From assembly GCF_000813725.1 (NCBI RefSeq), contig NZ_JWLD01000007.1, forward strand, positions 1 through 64,000: DNA of 64,000 nucleotides. Direction: 5' to 3'. A program made the translations under genes and the position numbers. Positions 3,127-10,196 of the stretch are shown here, piece by piece (the stretch's first letter is position 1; the number at the start of each line of letters is the position of its first letter). The stretch comes from Leisingera sp. ANG-Vp (GTDB lineage: Bacteria; Pseudomonadota; Alphaproteobacteria; Rhodobacterales; Rhodobacteraceae). A model generated the notes under the pieces. The model did not search any database. It saw only the letters and a list, made by a program, of their open reading frames with translations, and was not told the origin of the DNA.

Positions 3127-4515
3127 TCAGCTCACCTCGTAAGGCAGCACGCCGCGCTGGTCGGTGTTGATGGTCAGCCGCCGCTCCAGCGGCGGGACTG
3201 ATCGCTGGTGGCAGTCCTTGCGCTCGCAGATCCGGCAGGAGATGCCGATCGGCTCATAGGCGCTGTCGTTGCTCACATCCAGATTGTCCGCATAGACCAG
3301 CGCATCCGCGTGGCGCACCTCGCACCCAAGCGCAATTGCATAGCGCCGCACCGGCGCGCCGTAGGAGCCGCCGGGCTTCGACACATCCCGCGCCAGGGAG
3401 ATATAGCGCACCCCGTCCGGCGTCTCTGCCAGCTGGCGCAGGAAGCGGCCCGGGGTCTCAAACGCCCGGTGCACGTTCCACAGCGGGCAGGCGCCGCCGA
3501 AACGGGCAAACTGCAGCCGCGTGGCCGAGTGCCGCTTGGTGATCGTGCCGGCCTGGTCCACGCGCACAAAGAAAAACGGCAGCCCCTTGGCGCCGGGCCG
3601 CTGCAGAGTTGAGAGCCTGTGCGCAATCTGTTCGATCGAGGCGCCAAAACGGATCGACAGCAGCTCCAGGTCATGGCGGCAGGCCTGGGCTGCGTCCAGG
3701 AACCGCGTGTAGGGCATCAGCGCGGCGCCGGCAAAGTAATTCGCCAGGCCGATCTTGGCGATGGAGCGGGCCTCCTCGCTCTGAAACTTTGCAAAATCGA
3801 GGGTCGCTTCCAGCAAAGTGTTCTGCCGCAGCAGCGCCACCTGCAGCAGCATCTGGAACAACTGCGTCTGCGGGGCCGAGCGGTTCGACAGGTGCAGCAC
3901 CCTGGCCTCGCCGTCATAGTGGCGCAGCCCCTCCATCTCAGTCTGGCGCACGGTGATGCCGCCGCGCTCCAGCTCGGCTATGGCTGCAGCACGGATGTCG
4001 CTGGTAGAGGCAAACCGTTCTGCCGCATGGTCCACTGCGTCGATGTAGTTGTCGCAGTAATGGAAGAAATCCCGGACCTCTTCCCAGGGAGAAGCCTGGA
4101 TGCGCGCATCCTCCCGTCCCAGCGCCTCATCCAGTGAAGCCAGCCGCTCATGGGTTTGCCGGTAGGCCCGGTGCAGTGAAAGAAAGGCGCGTGCCAGGGC
4201 AGGGGCATTCGACGCCGTCAGCCGCAGGTCCGCCAGCGGCGGCGCGTCATCAGCAAAGACCGGATCCGCCATCGCCTCGCGCATGTCGCTGACCAGCCGT
4301 TCGCTGTCGCCGGCGCTCAGCTCGGTCACATCCATGCCGAATTCCTGCGCCAGCGCCAGCACCACCGTGGTCGAGACCGGGCGGTTGTTGTTCTCCATCT
4401 GGTTCAGATAGGGCAGGGAGACCCCCAGCTTGGCGGCAAAGTCCTTCTGCGTCAGCTCCAGCCGCTGCCGCATCTCGCGCAGCTTGGCGCCGGCGTAAAG
4501 TTTCTGGGTGGCCAT
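3127..4515 (-). CDS. pccR: ScfR-family acyl-CoA responsive regulator of propionyl-CoA carboxylase
   Basis: A 462-residue regulator of the short-chain fatty acyl-CoA regulator (ScfR/RamB-like) family. Residues about 8-62 form an XRE-type helix-turn-helix (LREMRQRLELTQKDFAAKLG, then SLPYLNQMENNNRP). A central IrrE-like domain and a C-terminal ScfR domain follow, ending in a cysteine cluster (ISCRICERKDCHQR) typical of the family. In Rhodobacter sphaeroides PccR controls pccB and binds TTTGCAAA-type motifs. The ATG at 4515 is chosen because the HTH starts a few residues later and an operator-like repeat lies directly upstream; a longer start would translate that repeat. The gene is about 4 kb from pccB, which carries matching sites. 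Confidence 0.85.
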   Translation of the reverse strand: MATQKLYAGAKLREMRQRLELTQKDFAAKLGVSLPYLNQMENNNRPVSTTVVLALAQEFGMDVTELSAGDSERLVSDMREAMADPVFADDAPPLADLRLTASNAPALARAFLSLHRAYRQTHERLASLDEALGREDARIQASPWEEVRDFFHYCDNYIDAVDHAAERFASTSDIRAAAIAELERGGITVRQTEMEGLRHYDGEARVLHLSNRSAPQTQLFQMLLQVALLRQNTLLEATLDFAKFQSEEARSIAKIGLANYFAGAALMPYTRFLDAAQACRHDLELLSIRFGASIEQIAHRLSTLQRPGAKGLPFFFVRVDQAGTITKRHSATRLQFARFGGACPLWNVHRAFETPGRFLRQLAETPDGVRYISLARDVSKPGGSYGAPVRRYAIALGCEVRHADALVYADNLDVSNDSAYEPIGISCRICERKDCHQRSVPPLERRLTINTDQRGVLPYEVS

Positions 4516-4525
4516 AGGGCGTGCC

Positions 4526-4563
4526 TTTGCAAGTTTACTTTCCGCGCAAGTTAACTTTGCAAA
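4526..4563 (-). promoter_or_regulatory. Probable PccR autoregulatory operator
   Basis: Immediately upstream of the pccR start are TTTGCAAG (4526-4533) and TTTGCAAA (4556-4563). The segment also contains a 17-base direct repeat, GCAAGTTWACTTTSC starting at 4529 and again at 4546, matching at 13 of 15 positions. ScfR/RamB proteins bind TTTGCAAA-like boxes, so autoregulation is inferred. Confidence 0.65.
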
Positions 4564-4580
4564 ATGGCGCGCGCAAGCGG

Positions 4581-4868
4581 TCAGACCCGCGCACCCTCCC
4601 GGAACACCTGCCGCCATTCCAGGATCCGCACTGACTTGCGCAGGCCGGTCGGCCAGAACGGGTCCGCCTGCACCAGTTCCTGGACGTCCTCCGCCGAACC
4701 GGCTTCGACGATCCACATGCCGCCCTGTCCCTCCCCGTTTTCCAAAAGCGGGCCAGCGCCCTGGACCTGCTGCCCGCGGCTGGCCAGAAATTCAAGATGG
4801 GCAGCCATATGCTGCTGCCGCAGTGTCTCCCTGCCGGGAGTGTCTTCAAACAAAACGCAATAGATCAT
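4581..4868 (-). CDS. YciI-family protein
   Basis: A 95-residue YciI-like (dimeric alpha/beta barrel) protein. It has the usual N-terminal strand MIYCVLFEDT, the HLEFLASRG helix region, a glycine-rich GAGPLLENG, and ADPFWPTGL, corresponding to the family's ADPF motif. The reaction is unknown for most members; some are small dehydrochlorinase-like or muconolactone isomerase-like enzymes. AGGAG precedes the ATG at 4868. It is divergent from the LysR gene at 4963, separated by 94 bases, so the LysR protein probably controls it. Confidence 0.85.
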   Translation of the reverse strand: MIYCVLFEDTPGRETLRQQHMAAHLEFLASRGQQVQGAGPLLENGEGQGGMWIVEAGSAEDVQELVQADPFWPTGLRKSVRILEWRQVFREGARV

Positions 4869-5826: not shown

Positions 5827-7038
5827 TCACGCCTCTAGGCGCCGCTCCCGCCTGATCACCAGCAGGATCGAGATCAGCCCGCAGACGCCGGTGGCAAACA
5901 TGATTGTCAAAAGCGGCACCGCGGTGGAGCCCGGCACCAGCAGCATGCCGGCAAAGGCGCTGAGCGCCGCGCCTGCGCCGATCATGATAGCGCCGCTAAG
6001 GCCCGAGGCGGTTCCCGCCAGATGCGGCCGCACCGAGATTGCCCCGGCAGTTGCGTTGGGGATAGCCATGCCGTTGCCGACCCCGACAAAACACATGAGG
6101 CCGAAGAACGTCCACACCGTATCAGCGCCGGACGCCGCGATCAGCAGCGACACCAGCACCCCGCCGCCATTGATCACGCAGCCCCAAAGCACCATCCGGT
6201 TGATGCCGATGCGGGTGGAATAGCGGCCGGAAACGAAGTTCCCGGCAAAGTAGCCGATTGCAGGCGCCGAGAAATAGACGCCGAGTTCCGCCGTGCTGAG
6301 GCCGTACACCTCGGTGCCGACAAACGGCGCGCCGCCCAGATAGGCAAAGAACGACCCCGACGCGAGGCCGGACGCCAGCGAATAGCCCCAGAACCGCGGC
6401 GAGCGCAGCAGCTCCGGGTATTCCTTGAATTGCGCGGTCAGCGTCTTGCCGCTTTTGCGGGCGGTCTCGCCGAAATCGGTGAAGGTGATGGCCAGCGTGG
6501 CGGCGCCCACCAGGAACAGCAGCCAGAAATTGGTCTTCCAGCCCATCCACTGGTCCAGGAAGCCGCCGATGGCCGGCCCGATCATCGGCACCACCGCCAT
6601 GCCCATGGTGACATAGCCGATCATGCTGGCCGCCTGATCGGTGTCAAACATGTCCCGCACCGCGGCACGGCTGAGGACCATGGTGGCGGCCACGACGGTC
6701 TGCGCCACCCGGAACATCAGGAAAGCTTCGGCTGTGGGCGCATAAATGCAGCCCAGTGTCGCCAGCAAAAACAGCACAATGCTGGCCAGGATCACCGGCC
6801 GCCGCCCCATCTGGTCTGAAATCGGCCCGACAAAAATCTGCACCACCGCATTGCCCGCCAGATACAGCGCCACCGACAGCTGCATCACCCGGTATTCAAC
6901 CGCATAATACTCCGCCATCCCCGCAAGCGACGGCAGATGCAGGTTCATGCCAAGCGCCGACAGGCCTGCCAGCAGGATCAGGGTGAAGATGCGCGGAGGC
7001 GTCCGCTGGCCGGAAATGCGGGCATTATATGTGGACAT
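5827..7038 (-). CDS. MFS drug exporter, Bcr/CflA family
   Basis: A 403-residue, 12-helix major facilitator of the DHA1 Bcr/CflA group, expected to export drugs or other small molecules by proton antiport. Seen are the motif between helices 2 and 3 (GPISDQMGRRPVIL), the helix-5 antiporter-type motif region (MAVVPMIGPAIGGFLDQWMGW), and the C-half GNGMAIPNATAGAISVRPHLAG. It faces away from a paralogous exporter at 7279; the two share all of these motifs but differ widely elsewhere. Its stop lies four bases from that of the convergent LysR gene. Substrate unknown. Confidence 0.88.
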   Translation of the reverse strand: MSTYNARISGQRTPPRIFTLILLAGLSALGMNLHLPSLAGMAEYYAVEYRVMQLSVALYLAGNAVVQIFVGPISDQMGRRPVILASIVLFLLATLGCIYAPTAEAFLMFRVAQTVVAATMVLSRAAVRDMFDTDQAASMIGYVTMGMAVVPMIGPAIGGFLDQWMGWKTNFWLLFLVGAATLAITFTDFGETARKSGKTLTAQFKEYPELLRSPRFWGYSLASGLASGSFFAYLGGAPFVGTEVYGLSTAELGVYFSAPAIGYFAGNFVSGRYSTRIGINRMVLWGCVINGGGVLVSLLIAASGADTVWTFFGLMCFVGVGNGMAIPNATAGAISVRPHLAGTASGLSGAIMIGAGAALSAFAGMLLVPGSTAVPLLTIMFATGVCGLISILLVIRRERRLEA

Positions 7039-7155
7039 ACCATCTGCCTTAGAGCAGCCCGCCGTCCTTGTCTATCGGGTAATCAGGCAACCTCTGTCAT
7101 GGGCGTTGCAACGCGCAAGCATTGCGGATAGCGTTCCGGTAAAGGGAGGCTCCGC

Positions 7156-7203
7156 ATGCTGATTTCAGCCGTATTCGCAGTAAACAGGCGCATGGACCGT
7201 TAA
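7156..7203 (+). CDS. Candidate leader peptide upstream of the exporter (15 codons)
   Basis: A short ORF encodes MLISAVFAVNRRMDR and stops with TAA at 7201-7203. GGGAGG at 7144-7149 is placed as a Shine-Dalgarno, seven bases before the ATG. The last codons (CGC-ATG-GAC-CGT) lie inside the left arm of a long hairpin, and an intrinsic terminator follows, all before the Bcr/CflA exporter ATG at 7279. Leader ORFs of this kind control inducible resistance genes by ribosome stalling (erm, cat and the CmlA-type chloramphenicol exporters). Function here is inferred from layout alone. Confidence 0.5.
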   Translation: MLISAVFAVNRRMDR

Positions 7204-7261
7204 CGGTTTCCATATCCGTTTCCATGCGCCCCCGGACCAGTTCCGGGGGTTTTTTGTTTTT
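7187..7261 (+). terminator. Hairpin plus intrinsic terminator (attenuator-like) in the exporter leader
   Basis: First arm: GGCGCATGGA (7187-7196) pairs perfectly with 7221-7230. Inside it AACGG (7202-7206) can pair with CCGTT (7216-7220). A second hairpin has an 8-bp GC stem, 7229-7236 with 7242-7249, followed by TTTTTTGTTTTT. The two hairpins share bases 7229-7230. The terminator sits only 17 bases before the exporter ATG, so full-length transcription must read through it. Confidence 0.75.
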
Positions 7262-7278
7262 GAAACAGGAGCACTGCA

Positions 7279-8490
7279 ATGCCCGCAGCTAAATCTCCGC
7301 CGCATTTTTTCACACTGATTGTTCTGACAGCCTATGCCACCTTGTCGCTCAATATGTTTCTGCCATCCCTGCCGGGCATCGCAGCGGACCTGGATGCGGA
7401 CTATGCAACCGTCAGCCTTGCAGTGTCCGGCTACCTCGGGATCACTGCTGTCATCCAGCTGATTGCGGGGTCGGTGTCGGACCGGATCGGCCGCCGCCCG
7501 GTGCTGCTTGCTGCCACCGCCCTGTTTGCCGCCGCCTCGCTGGTCTGTGCGCTGGCGCAGGATGTCTGGACCTTTCTGGCGTTCAGAATGCTGCAAGGCG
7601 GCATAATTTCCGGATATGCGCTGTCGCTTGCGATTGTGCGCGATACCTCGTCCGAGCAGAGGGCGGCCGGGCTGATCGGCTATATCAGCCTGGGCATGGC
7701 GGTTGCGCCGATGCTTGGCCCGATGCTGGGCGGGCTGCTGGATTCCGTCTTCGGCTGGCGCGCCAGTTTCCACTTCTACGCAGTGTCGGGGCTGCTGCTG
7801 TTTGCCCTGTGCTGGGCCGATTTGGGGGAAACAAGACCCGCCCGGGCAGGTGAGGCGCCACTGCCGGCAGGCGGGGCAGCCGCGCTTTTGCGGGCGCCGC
7901 TGTTTTGGGCCTATTCCCTGTGCGGCGCTTTCTCGACCGGCGCCTTCTACATTTTCCTGACGGGCGCGCCCTTGGCCGCCGCAGCGCAGTTTGCCATGCC
8001 GTCCAGCGCGCTCGGCATATGTATCGGCTCAATTACCGCCGGTTTCATGGCTGGCAGCCTGATCTCTGCGAAGCTGGCGCCGCATTGCACTCCGGCGGCC
8101 CTGATGCTGGCCGGGCGGCTGGTGGCCTGTGCCGGCCTCGCTGCGGGGCTGGCCCTGACCCTTGCAGGCCCGGCATCGCCGGTCCTCTTCTTTGGCTGCA
8201 CGGTCTTTGCCGGTCTCGGCAACGGCATCACGATGCCCGCCTGCAATGCTGCGGCAATGTCTGTCGAGCCCCGGCTGGCGGGCAGCGCCGCCGGGATCAG
8301 CGGCGCGCTGACTGTGGCTGCAGGCGCTGTCCTGACCGCGCTGACGGGGTGGAGCCTTCCGGCTGCAAACCCGGCTCCTGCACTGCTGCTGCTGATGCTG
8401 CTGGCCTCGGCTGCAGGTCTCGCTGCGGTCCTTGCCGCCGTCCGGCTGCGCCGCGGCGGGGCAGGCGGCCGCGAAGCGGGGGTACAGTAG
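7279..8490 (+). CDS. MFS drug exporter, Bcr/CflA family, with attenuator-like leader
   Basis: A 403-residue 12-helix DHA1 transporter and paralog of the divergent exporter at 5827-7038. Motifs: GSVSDRIGRRPVLL between helices 2 and 3, MAVAPMLGPMLGGLLDSVFGW in helix 5, and GNGITMPACNAAAMSVEPRLAG in the second half. CAGGAG lies about eight bases before the ATG. The same broad family includes Bcr (bicyclomycin) and CmlA/FloR (phenicols). A 15-codon leader ORF and a terminator lie in its 5' leader, suggesting inducible expression. Substrate unknown. Confidence 0.9.
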   Translation: MPAAKSPPHFFTLIVLTAYATLSLNMFLPSLPGIAADLDADYATVSLAVSGYLGITAVIQLIAGSVSDRIGRRPVLLAATALFAAASLVCALAQDVWTFLAFRMLQGGIISGYALSLAIVRDTSSEQRAAGLIGYISLGMAVAPMLGPMLGGLLDSVFGWRASFHFYAVSGLLLFALCWADLGETRPARAGEAPLPAGGAAALLRAPLFWAYSLCGAFSTGAFYIFLTGAPLAAAAQFAMPSSALGICIGSITAGFMAGSLISAKLAPHCTPAALMLAGRLVACAGLAAGLALTLAGPASPVLFFGCTVFAGLGNGITMPACNAAAMSVEPRLAGSAAGISGALTVAAGAVLTALTGWSLPAANPAPALLLLMLLASAAGLAAVLAAVRLRRGGAGGREAGVQ

Positions 8491-8558: not shown

Positions 8559-8598
8559 TTTGCGAACCTCGTATGCAAACGATTTGCAAATTTGCGAA
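8559..8598 (+). promoter_or_regulatory. PccR operator region upstream of pccB
   Basis: Four boxes close to the TTTGCAAA consensus lie 66-105 bases before the pccB ATG: TTTGCGAA (8559-8566), TATGCAAA (8572-8579), TTTGCAAA (8583-8590) and TTTGCGAA (8591-8598). The R. sphaeroides pccB promoter is reported to carry paired TTTGCAAA boxes bound by PccR. The link to pccR at 3127-4515 is an inference from that precedent. Confidence 0.75.
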
Positions 8599-8663: not shown

Positions 8664-10196
8664 ATGAAAGACATCCTTTCCGAGCTGGAAGACCGCCGCC
8701 AGGACGCGCGGCTGGGCGGCGGCCAGCGCCGCATCGACGCACAGCATGGGCGCGGCAAGCTGACAGCCCGCGAACGGATCGAACTGCTGCTGGACGAAGG
8801 CAGCTTTGAAGAGTTCGACATGTTCATCGGCCACCGCTGCACCGATTTCGGCATGGAAAACAACCGCCCGGCGGGCGACGGCGTGGTCACCGGCTGGGGC
8901 ACCATCAACGGCCGCCAGGTCTATGTCTTCTCCCAGGATTTCACCGTTCTGGGCGGCTCAGTCTCGGCCACCCACGCTCAGAAGATCTGCAAGATCATGG
9001 ACATGGCGGTGCAGAACGGCGCGCCGGTGATCGGCATCAACGACTCGGGCGGCGCCCGGATCCAGGAAGGCGTCGACGCGCTTGCAGGCTACGCCGAGAT
9101 CTTCCAGCGCAACATCATGGCCTCCGGCGTGATCCCGCAGATCTCTGTCATCATGGGCCCCTGCGCCGGCGGCGCGGTTTACTCGCCTGCGATGACCGAC
9201 TTCATCTTTATGGTCAAAGACACCTCCTACATGTTCGTGACCGGTCCCGACGTGGTGAAAACCGTGACCAATGAAGTGGTGACGGCTGAGGAACTGGGCG
9301 GCGCTTCCACCCACACCAAGAAATCCTCCGTCGCCGACGGCGCATTTGAAAACGACGTCGAGGCGCTGGCCGAAGTCCGCCGCCTGGTCGACTTCCTGCC
9401 GCTCAACAACCGCGAAAAGCCCCCCGTTCGCCCGTTCTTTGACGAGCCTGGCCGCGTCGAGAGCAGCCTGGATACCCTGATCCCGGAAAACCCCAACAGC
9501 CCCTACGACATGAAGGAGCTGATCACCAAAGTCGCGGACGAGGGCGACTTCTACGAGATCCAGGAAGACTTCGCCAAGAACATCATCACCGGCTTCATCC
9601 GCCTCGAAGGCCAGACCGTGGGTGTTGTCGCCAACCAGCCGATGGTGCTGGCGGGCTGCCTCGACATCGACTCGTCGCGCAAGGCCGCGCGCTTTGTGCG
9701 CTTCTGCGATTGTTTCGAAATCCCGATCCTGACCTTCGTCGACGTGCCGGGCTTCCTGCCGGGCACCTCCCAGGAATACGGCGGCGTCATCAAGCACGGC
9801 GCCAAGCTGCTGTTTGCCTATGGCGAAGCCACCGTGCCGAAGGTCACCGTGATCACCCGCAAGGCCTATGGCGGCGCCTACGACGTGATGGCCTCCAAGC
9901 ATCTGCGCGGCGATTTCAACTATGCCTGGCCGACCGCCGAGATCGCGGTGATGGGCGCCAAGGGCGCCACCGAGATCATCCACCGCGCCGACCTCGGCGA
10001 TGCGGACAAGATCGCGGCCCACACCAAGGATTATGAAGACCGTTTCGCCAACCCCTTTGTGGCGGCTGAGCGCGGTTTCATCGACGAGGTGATCATGCCC
10101 CAGTCCACCCGCCGCCGGGTTGCCCGCGCCTTTGCCTCGCTGCGGGGCAAGCAGCTGAAGAACCCGTGGAAAAAGCACGACAACATTCCGCTGTAA
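8664..10196 (+). CDS. pccB: Propionyl-CoA carboxylase, beta (carboxyltransferase) subunit
   Basis: A 510-residue carboxyltransferase subunit that moves the carboxyl group from carboxybiotin on PccA to propionyl-CoA, giving methylmalonyl-CoA. The N-domain carries [13 protein letters not shown] and [19 protein letters not shown]; the C-domain carries [20 protein letters not shown] and [18 protein letters not shown]. Length matches the family. It is the first gene of the propionyl-CoA module and has four PccR-type boxes in its promoter. PccA follows about 4.7 kb downstream with unknown genes between. A hairpin without T-tract follows the stop. Confidence 0.96.

Follow-up and report, generated by a model that had tools for sequence, protein, structure and literature searches.

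The window, that is the whole 64,000-nucleotide stretch of Leisingera sp. ANG-Vp DNA analysed here, carries on its forward strand a gene (7279-8490) for a Bcr/CflA-like MFS exporter of 403 amino acids (Pfam MFS_1, 8.9e-43). The nearest NCBIfam model is efflux_Bcr_CflA, which the protein matches with 185.7 bits, below the cut-off of 200.9, and its relatives include the CmlA/FloR models as well as the solved structures of MdfA and the multidrug resistance protein D (EmrD). A second, divergent Bcr/CflA transporter is encoded on the reverse strand (5827-7038), scores above the NCBIfam cut-off and falls outside the leader-bearing groups of the exporter tree described below; two of its kin (L024 and L027) adjoin an apparent pccB start, as read by eye. 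We take the reverse-strand gene at 3127-4716 to encode a regulator resembling the short-chain acyl-CoA (PccR/ScfR) type, and the forward-strand gene downstream of the exporter (8664-10196) is presumably a carboxyl transferase gene like that of propionyl-CoA carboxylase beta. The motif TTTGCAAATTTGCGAA lies at 8583-8598.

Elements of the leader upstream of the exporter

Ahead of the exporter, a ribosome-binding site GGGAGG (7144-7149) and a 15-codon leader peptide ORF MLISAVFAVNRRMDR (7156-7203; ATG CTG ATT TCA GCC GTA TTC GCA GTA AAC AGG CGC ATG GAC CGT TAA) can be read directly on the forward strand; AAGGAG-like sites precede many homologous leaders, and homologous ORFs are present in relatives. 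The last ORF codons overlap the left arm of a 10-bp hairpin, termed hairpin B (GGCGCATGGA 7187-7196 / TCCATGCGCC 7221-7230), whose 3' arm shares positions 7228-7230 with the base of an intrinsic terminator (7228-7255). This terminator comprises a stem of 8 bp (7229-7249), an extra G-U pair (7228/7250) and a T6 run to 7255; a second T-run ends at 7261, and the exporter ATG at 7279 follows 17 nt further on. The original prediction had named the ORF with its well-placed GGGAGG, the hairpin over the last codons and the strong terminator shortly before the exporter, and all three are present. It had also proposed an inner pairing AACGG/CCGTT (7197-7206), of which CCG/CGG with a UUAA loop can form; since CCGTT/AACGG is a palindrome without a loop, these three pairs are the limit and the full 5-bp pairing is impossible. 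Together with 7192-7196/7209-7213, the three pairs (7197-7199/7204-7206) make up hairpin A, a less well supported alternative to hairpin B.

The leader RNA folds with z = -3.6, equal stability being reached in 1 of 200 shuffles, and its terminator has the longest stem among nine terminator-like sites in 3 kb, where 2.1 are expected. Further upstream on the forward strand, a promoter-like pair TTGCAA (7106-7111) and TAGCGT (7129-7134), separated by 17 nt, suggests a transcript start near 7140, so that the whole leader would be contained in the transcript. In front of 20 of 24 exporter leaders and of all 17 ilvI leaders, the corresponding TTG-17-TA pattern agrees in at least 8 of 12 letters, compared with a mean below 0.7 and a maximum of 4 in mononucleotide shuffles, the consensus letters having been chosen after inspection.

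An Rfam scan of window positions 6900-7500 returned no family at the gathering score, the best hit being Atu_C8 with 23.7 bits against a gathering score of 50. This Rhizobiales sRNA gives a weak full-length match at 7158-7265, perhaps by chance, as it is not seen in ten homologous loci. The Rfam scan of ten homologous loci (L002-L011), comprising five ilvI leaders (L004 and L008-L011), four exporter leaders and one orphan, likewise yielded no family at threshold over the element. At one of these loci, which belongs to a congener, a chrB-a RNA (Rfam RF03078, 50.1 bits, gathering score 43.9) lies on the reverse strand near the exporter locus (L006:89-172).

Distribution of the leader and its exporter

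Using 201 bases around the leader as query against 61 genomes, we obtained DNA matches in 11 genomes, the window's own included. The ten others fall into two classes: five congeners with Val or Ala/Val leaders, four of which precede the same exporter (e.g. MTFNFVVVVSKRCMVR and MPLPAAAVAVSERCMVR), and five leaders of other genera that stand before the acetolactate synthase large subunit (e.g. MNVLLVIVRKLRMGL and MAPILVLVEKTRMGR). In G009 (L005/L071) an orphan Val-rich leader with a damaged terminator precedes a gene resembling an IS transposase. A set of 20 loci contained 17 clear exporter homologues, and the leader is present at 10 of these 17. Leader-bearing exporter loci include Roseobacter sp. 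MH60115, Mesorhizobium microcysteis and metagenome bins labelled Afifellaceae and Kiloniellales. The exporter and leader of L018 (JANQQD010000396.1), a contig labelled Anaerolineae, are close to those of the alphaproteobacterial L014; the two contigs are near-identical with the same neighbours, and the label is probably a binning error.

A covariance model was then built from 21 leaders. The window copy scores 84.1 bits, which is no test of the model because this copy belongs to the training set. Within the genus the model gave 27 matches of at least 71 bits, the next best reaching 34.7. The leader precedes acetolactate synthase (ilvI/ilvB) in all 21 genus genomes, the window's own included, and six genomes hold a second leader, which lies before the exporter in five (G000, G003, G012, G013 and G020) and is the orphan in G009. 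The genome of the window carries both leaders, and its ilvI leader (V)NALVVIVGTKRMGR (L033, G000:C52:14279-14356), a locus outside the training set, reaches 75.1 bits.

At the level of the family, the model matches 240 of 295 genomes at E<=1e-9, under filter settings that miss weaker copies. All 20 family matches taken from the better-scoring matches listed (L129-L148) precede acetolactate synthase, and their leaders are Leu/Val/Ile-rich, most of them like LVVIV...RMGR. In one genome (G068) acetolactate synthase is encoded twice, and a separate leader (L106 and L117) precedes each copy. An exporter-linked leader occurs in at least seven of the 295 family genomes (G000, G021, G024, G028, G130, G288 and G313). 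In a class-wide draw, matches at E<=1e-6 were found in nine of 192 genomes, three in the family and six outside it. Five of the six non-family matches precede the exporter (G037, G345, G446, G471 and G482, at least 43.8 bits), in two cases with the exporter placed by tblastn 41 and 51 nt downstream of the leader; at the sixth (G377, 31.1 bits) neither a leader ORF nor a following gene was seen. G446 is the L014 sequence already in the model, and the exporter leaders outside the training set number ten (G021, G024, G028, G130, G288, G313, G037, G345, G471 and G482).

We also applied the model to 47 exporter loci, the window's own among them, namely the 17 clear homologues and 30 further loci. 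The leader is present at 17 (at least 40 bits), ten from the first homologue set and seven from the further 30, and the remaining 30 loci score 16 or less. A scan of 13 of the 30 leaderless exporter loci for a BCAA-rich short ORF found none, except at L102, where three overlapping BCAA-rich ORFs look like the end of an upstream gene. A leader-like match of 43.6 bits with GTCGTCGTC (L119, G170:C6:280335-280408) is perhaps a relic; a scripted search found no ORF there, and no exporter was called downstream.

In the exporter tree, which has 55 rows, the presence of the leader in 24 rows takes 8 changes, compared with 18.4 when shuffled (0 of 500 as low); 15 of these 24 lie in a group of 21, eight in a group of nine and one apart. 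Leaderless rows account for 6 of the 21 and 1 of the 9, proportions that are not rates because some rows were found through the leader. At ten loci compared by raw ORF translations the exporter neighbours differ and leader and exporter stay together, so that the two seem to travel as a unit; no substrate clue was found among the neighbours of these ten loci. The GPxxGG antiporter motif, which is typical of exporters, is present in all 24 leader-bearing exporters and in 51 of the 55 tree rows overall, and since leaderless exporters have it too, it speaks only for export in general. Valine import by the transporter was considered as well, and the motif in 24 of 24 leader-bearing exporters points in the direction of export in the same general way.

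Hairpin conservation and presumed control codons

When the homologous leaders are aligned, the ORF recurs in other genera and the pairing of hairpin B is kept. Across 42 distinct leaders 88.6% of the cells in hairpin B are paired, a value not reached in 500 shuffles and compared with 29.5-63.3% for slid versions, and its covariation score is likewise reached in 0 of 500 shuffles. Three of its pairs are changed on both sides in these 42 leaders, a number also reached by 128 of 500 shuffles; in the first 20 leaders there was little covariation, which was not convincing. The terminator is paired in 96.4% of cells, and four of its pairs have changed on both sides, a count matched by 3 of 500 shuffles. 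For hairpin A, a set of 20 distinct leaders gives 83.1% paired cells, which 115 of 500 shuffles equal, and a covariation score equalled by 19 of 500; its three inner pairs are paired to 85.6% in the 42 leaders (70 of 500 as high).

We then characterized the switch by equilibrium folding, removing the bases covered by a ribosome whose edges we set ourselves. In the window the predicted probability of the outer terminator pairs is 0.90 with the ribosome at the stop codon, 0.33 with the ribosome stalled and 0.44 with no ribosome, the last value indicating no clear off state for an untranslated leader. Terminator pairing falls by more than 0.3 in 12 of 17 ilvI leaders and in 6 of 24 exporter leaders, one of which is the leader of the window. 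At equilibrium, then, most ilvI leaders and the window leader switch clearly, and the majority of exporter leaders do not. Overlapping by 2-3 nt, hairpin B and the terminator mostly coexist at equilibrium; hairpin B had been expected to exclude the terminator in a simple way throughout, and the folding came out otherwise. Rows left out of this test are L126 (terminator not found), L033, L050 and L063 (start string not found) and the orphan L005; L033 and L126 were included again for the arm comparison and the codon counts.

The presumed control codons of the window, Leu, Ile, Ser, Ala, Val(GTA), Phe, Ala and Val(GTA) (7159-7182, forward strand), occupy the same place as the Val runs of other exporter leaders and LVVIV of the ilvI leaders. 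Residues between Met1 and the last six were counted in 25 exporter leaders and 38 ilvI leaders (one from the genus; for L113 and L115 one of several possible starts was chosen). The mean number per exporter leader is 3.0 for Val, 0.64 for Ile and 0.32 for Leu, compared with 2.8 Val, 1.05 Ile and 1.21 Leu in ilvI leaders. Leu is present in the control region of 7 of 25 exporter versus 36 of 38 ilvI leaders (Fisher p 2.6e-8, an optimistic value because the leader rows are related). All of Leu, Val and Ile are found in 3 of 25 versus 32 of 38, and at least two Val without Leu or Ile in 10 of 25 versus 1 of 38. Two or more Val occur in 20 of 25 exporter and in all 38 ilvI leaders, and a run of at least three Val lies upstream of the hairpin arm in 16 of 24 exporter leaders. 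The GTA share of Val codons is 26/74 in 24 exporter leaders, drawn from many genomes, and 17/44 in 17 ilvI leaders, compared with 2/111 in four window genes, a background from one genome; for biased codons in attenuator leaders a passage in PMC1183508 provides a precedent. The window leader itself (LISAVFAV) has two Val, both GTA, one Ile, one Leu and two Ala, and no run.

These data bear on how the exporter is controlled. Ribosome-mediated attenuation, as originally predicted, is supported by homology, the ORF, hairpin B and the terminator. The prediction had further inferred, with erm, cat and CmlA-type leaders as precedent, that ribosomes stalled or slowed by a drug on the R-R-M-D-R codons control readthrough. 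In an erm/cmlA-kind leader an antibiotic would stall the ribosome at nascent R-R-M-D-R and thereby open the exporter, and an MFS efflux gene with CmlA/FloR, MdfA and EmrD relatives behind a leader ORF and a terminator fits this idea. However, the R-R-M-D-R codons form the arm of hairpin B that is common to exporter and ilvI leaders, and as a peptide this end varies across leaders (RCMVR, RMGR, RMDR, GSVVR, RRLDR, RRVDR, RCVVR, RRPGR), the 25 exporter leaders included. This argues against a conserved arrest peptide: the end is kept as an RNA pairing, not as a peptide. As the same leader also precedes acetolactate synthase genes, where BCAA codons are the natural control, and the control-region codons of the relatives are mostly Val, the drug-stall part is not supported and we regard it as quite improbable. 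Drug effects by general slowing of translation are possible.

Two Val codons in the window, against four each in the congener leaders L002 and L003, and the orphan of congener G009 would also be compatible with a decaying attenuator, which came with the exporter, lost its Val run and is now only a leaky terminator lowering expression. Such decay is unlikely given that the 10-bp hairpin B, the terminator, the ribosome site and the promoter-like site are all intact and both Val codons are GTA. In addition, the closest exporter, L006, which is the sister in the exporter tree (97/98 support), has a similar Ala/Val leader (AAAVAV), so that the Ala/Val pattern of the window may be inherited. Regulation of a multidrug pump by the peptide of a trp attenuator is described in PMC7298713, and by analogy the ~115-nt terminated RNA and the peptide could act in trans like rnTrpL/peTrpL of Sinorhizobium meliloti, with cis control being secondary. 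The cis linkage of leader and exporter in several families and the lack of conservation of the peptide make this very improbable indeed.

Proposed mechanism and relation to known systems

Based on the observed parts, their homology, the conservation of hairpin B and the terminator, the codons of the relatives and the promoter-like site, we consider it likely that 7106-7261 is a ribosome-mediated transcription attenuator, which senses the charging of BCAA-tRNA, chiefly valyl-tRNA in this exporter lineage, and is a homologue of the ilvI/ilvB leader of the same genome. The pump would then probably be turned on by valine shortage for protein synthesis, rather than by a drug touching the leader. 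For translation, transcript start, switch direction and inducing condition we infer the following model. Transcription would start at about 7140. With Val-tRNA plentiful, the ribosome would reach the stop codon at 7201 and cover 7187-7196, the left arm of hairpin B; the terminator (7228-7255) would form whole and transcription would stop after an RNA of ~115 nt. A ribosome stalled on the control codons (7159-7182) would instead allow hairpin B to form and take the terminator base (7228-7230), and transcription would run into the exporter gene.

Several observations count against the valine reading. The window leader is without a Val run, and in 5 of 25 exporter leaders the control region holds at most one Val; only 6 of 24 exporter leaders show a clear equilibrium switch; the leader is absent from 30 of 47 exporter loci; and it is not obvious how an exporter would help a cell that is short of valine. 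That a valyl-tRNA sensor drives a pump of a subfamily named for drug export, as an answer to valine shortage and with leader and pump forming one cassette in several alphaproteobacterial families, is proposed tentatively. If so, the transporter, whose function is read from its relatives and motif, may expel the agent behind the shortage, either an antimetabolite of valine or a compound that inhibits valyl-tRNA synthetase or the BCAA pathway, and the attenuator would then sense the damage, not the drug. Alternatively, the pump may remove Ile, Leu or 2-oxo acids whose surplus leaves the cell short of valine. Known amino-acid attenuators stand before biosynthetic and tRNA synthetase genes; an attenuator before an efflux-type transporter, its codons narrowed from Leu/Val/Ile towards Val, would be a clue both to the role of an orphan 'drug' pump and to how a cell could detect an antimetabolite through its effect. 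The analysis also describes a family-wide ilvI/ilvB leader, an element over which no family reached threshold in the present Rfam scans.

A literature search covering titles and the beginnings of abstracts among the matches listed, with subscription journals mostly outside its scope, brought up amino-acid attenuators and the trans action of peTrpL on a pump, but no amino-acid attenuator before an exporter and nothing on Bcr/CflA with a leader peptide or ribosome-mediated attenuation in Rhodobacteraceae. Within the same scope, nothing was found on leader peptide attenuation of alphaproteobacterial acetolactate synthase. Drug-inducible leaders of the erm/cat/cmlA type have a short ORF and hairpins before a resistance-type gene. 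The window leader is like these in layout; in contrast to them it is without a conserved arrest peptide, and the codons of its relatives point to an amino acid. With the Rhodobacteraceae-type ilvI leaders it shares hairpin B, the terminator, the promoter-like site, the position of the ORF and one covariance model, whereas these leaders have Leu, Val and Ile control codons, end mostly in RMGR and precede a biosynthetic gene.

The ilvBN/ilvIH attenuator of Caulobacter crescentus (Tarleton, Malakooti and Ely 1994, cited in PMC4117421) is likewise an alphaproteobacterial leader with a terminator; as described there, tandem Ile and Val codons precede acetolactate synthase, while here an MFS exporter lies downstream and the codons of the relatives are chiefly Val, the likeness being one of description. 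The Corynebacterium glutamicum ilvBNC leader, as described in PMC11857589, encodes 15 amino acids with VVV, and in earlier work cited there a Val to Ala change abolishes the valine response; its antiterminator and terminator overlap, with low-energy exchange between the hairpins. The window leader resembles it in the 15-residue length, the Val codons in the control region of relatives and the overlapping hairpins, whereas the C. glutamicum system belongs to a biosynthetic operon of an actinobacterium and has its own three-hairpin layout. In the same account, loss of the start codon lowers ilvBNC expression, whereas the window fold predicts no clear off state. The cysS leader uORFC-8-2 (PMC8632094) comes from the same taxonomic order, Rhodobacterales, and likewise has a short ORF with amino-acid codons ahead of a terminator, but differs in its Cys codons and its tRNA synthetase gene. 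Compared with ilv-type attenuators in general, the window has the ORF with a ribosome site, the intrinsic terminator and the homology to ilv leaders, and is without a downstream biosynthetic gene of the sensed amino acid; since the downstream gene is an MFS exporter, it is a variant rather than a plain member of this group. Attenuators of ilv genes are known from Caulobacter (PMC4117421) and from elsewhere; within the scope of the literature search above, the attachment to an efflux-type transporter and the narrowing of the codons towards Val are new.
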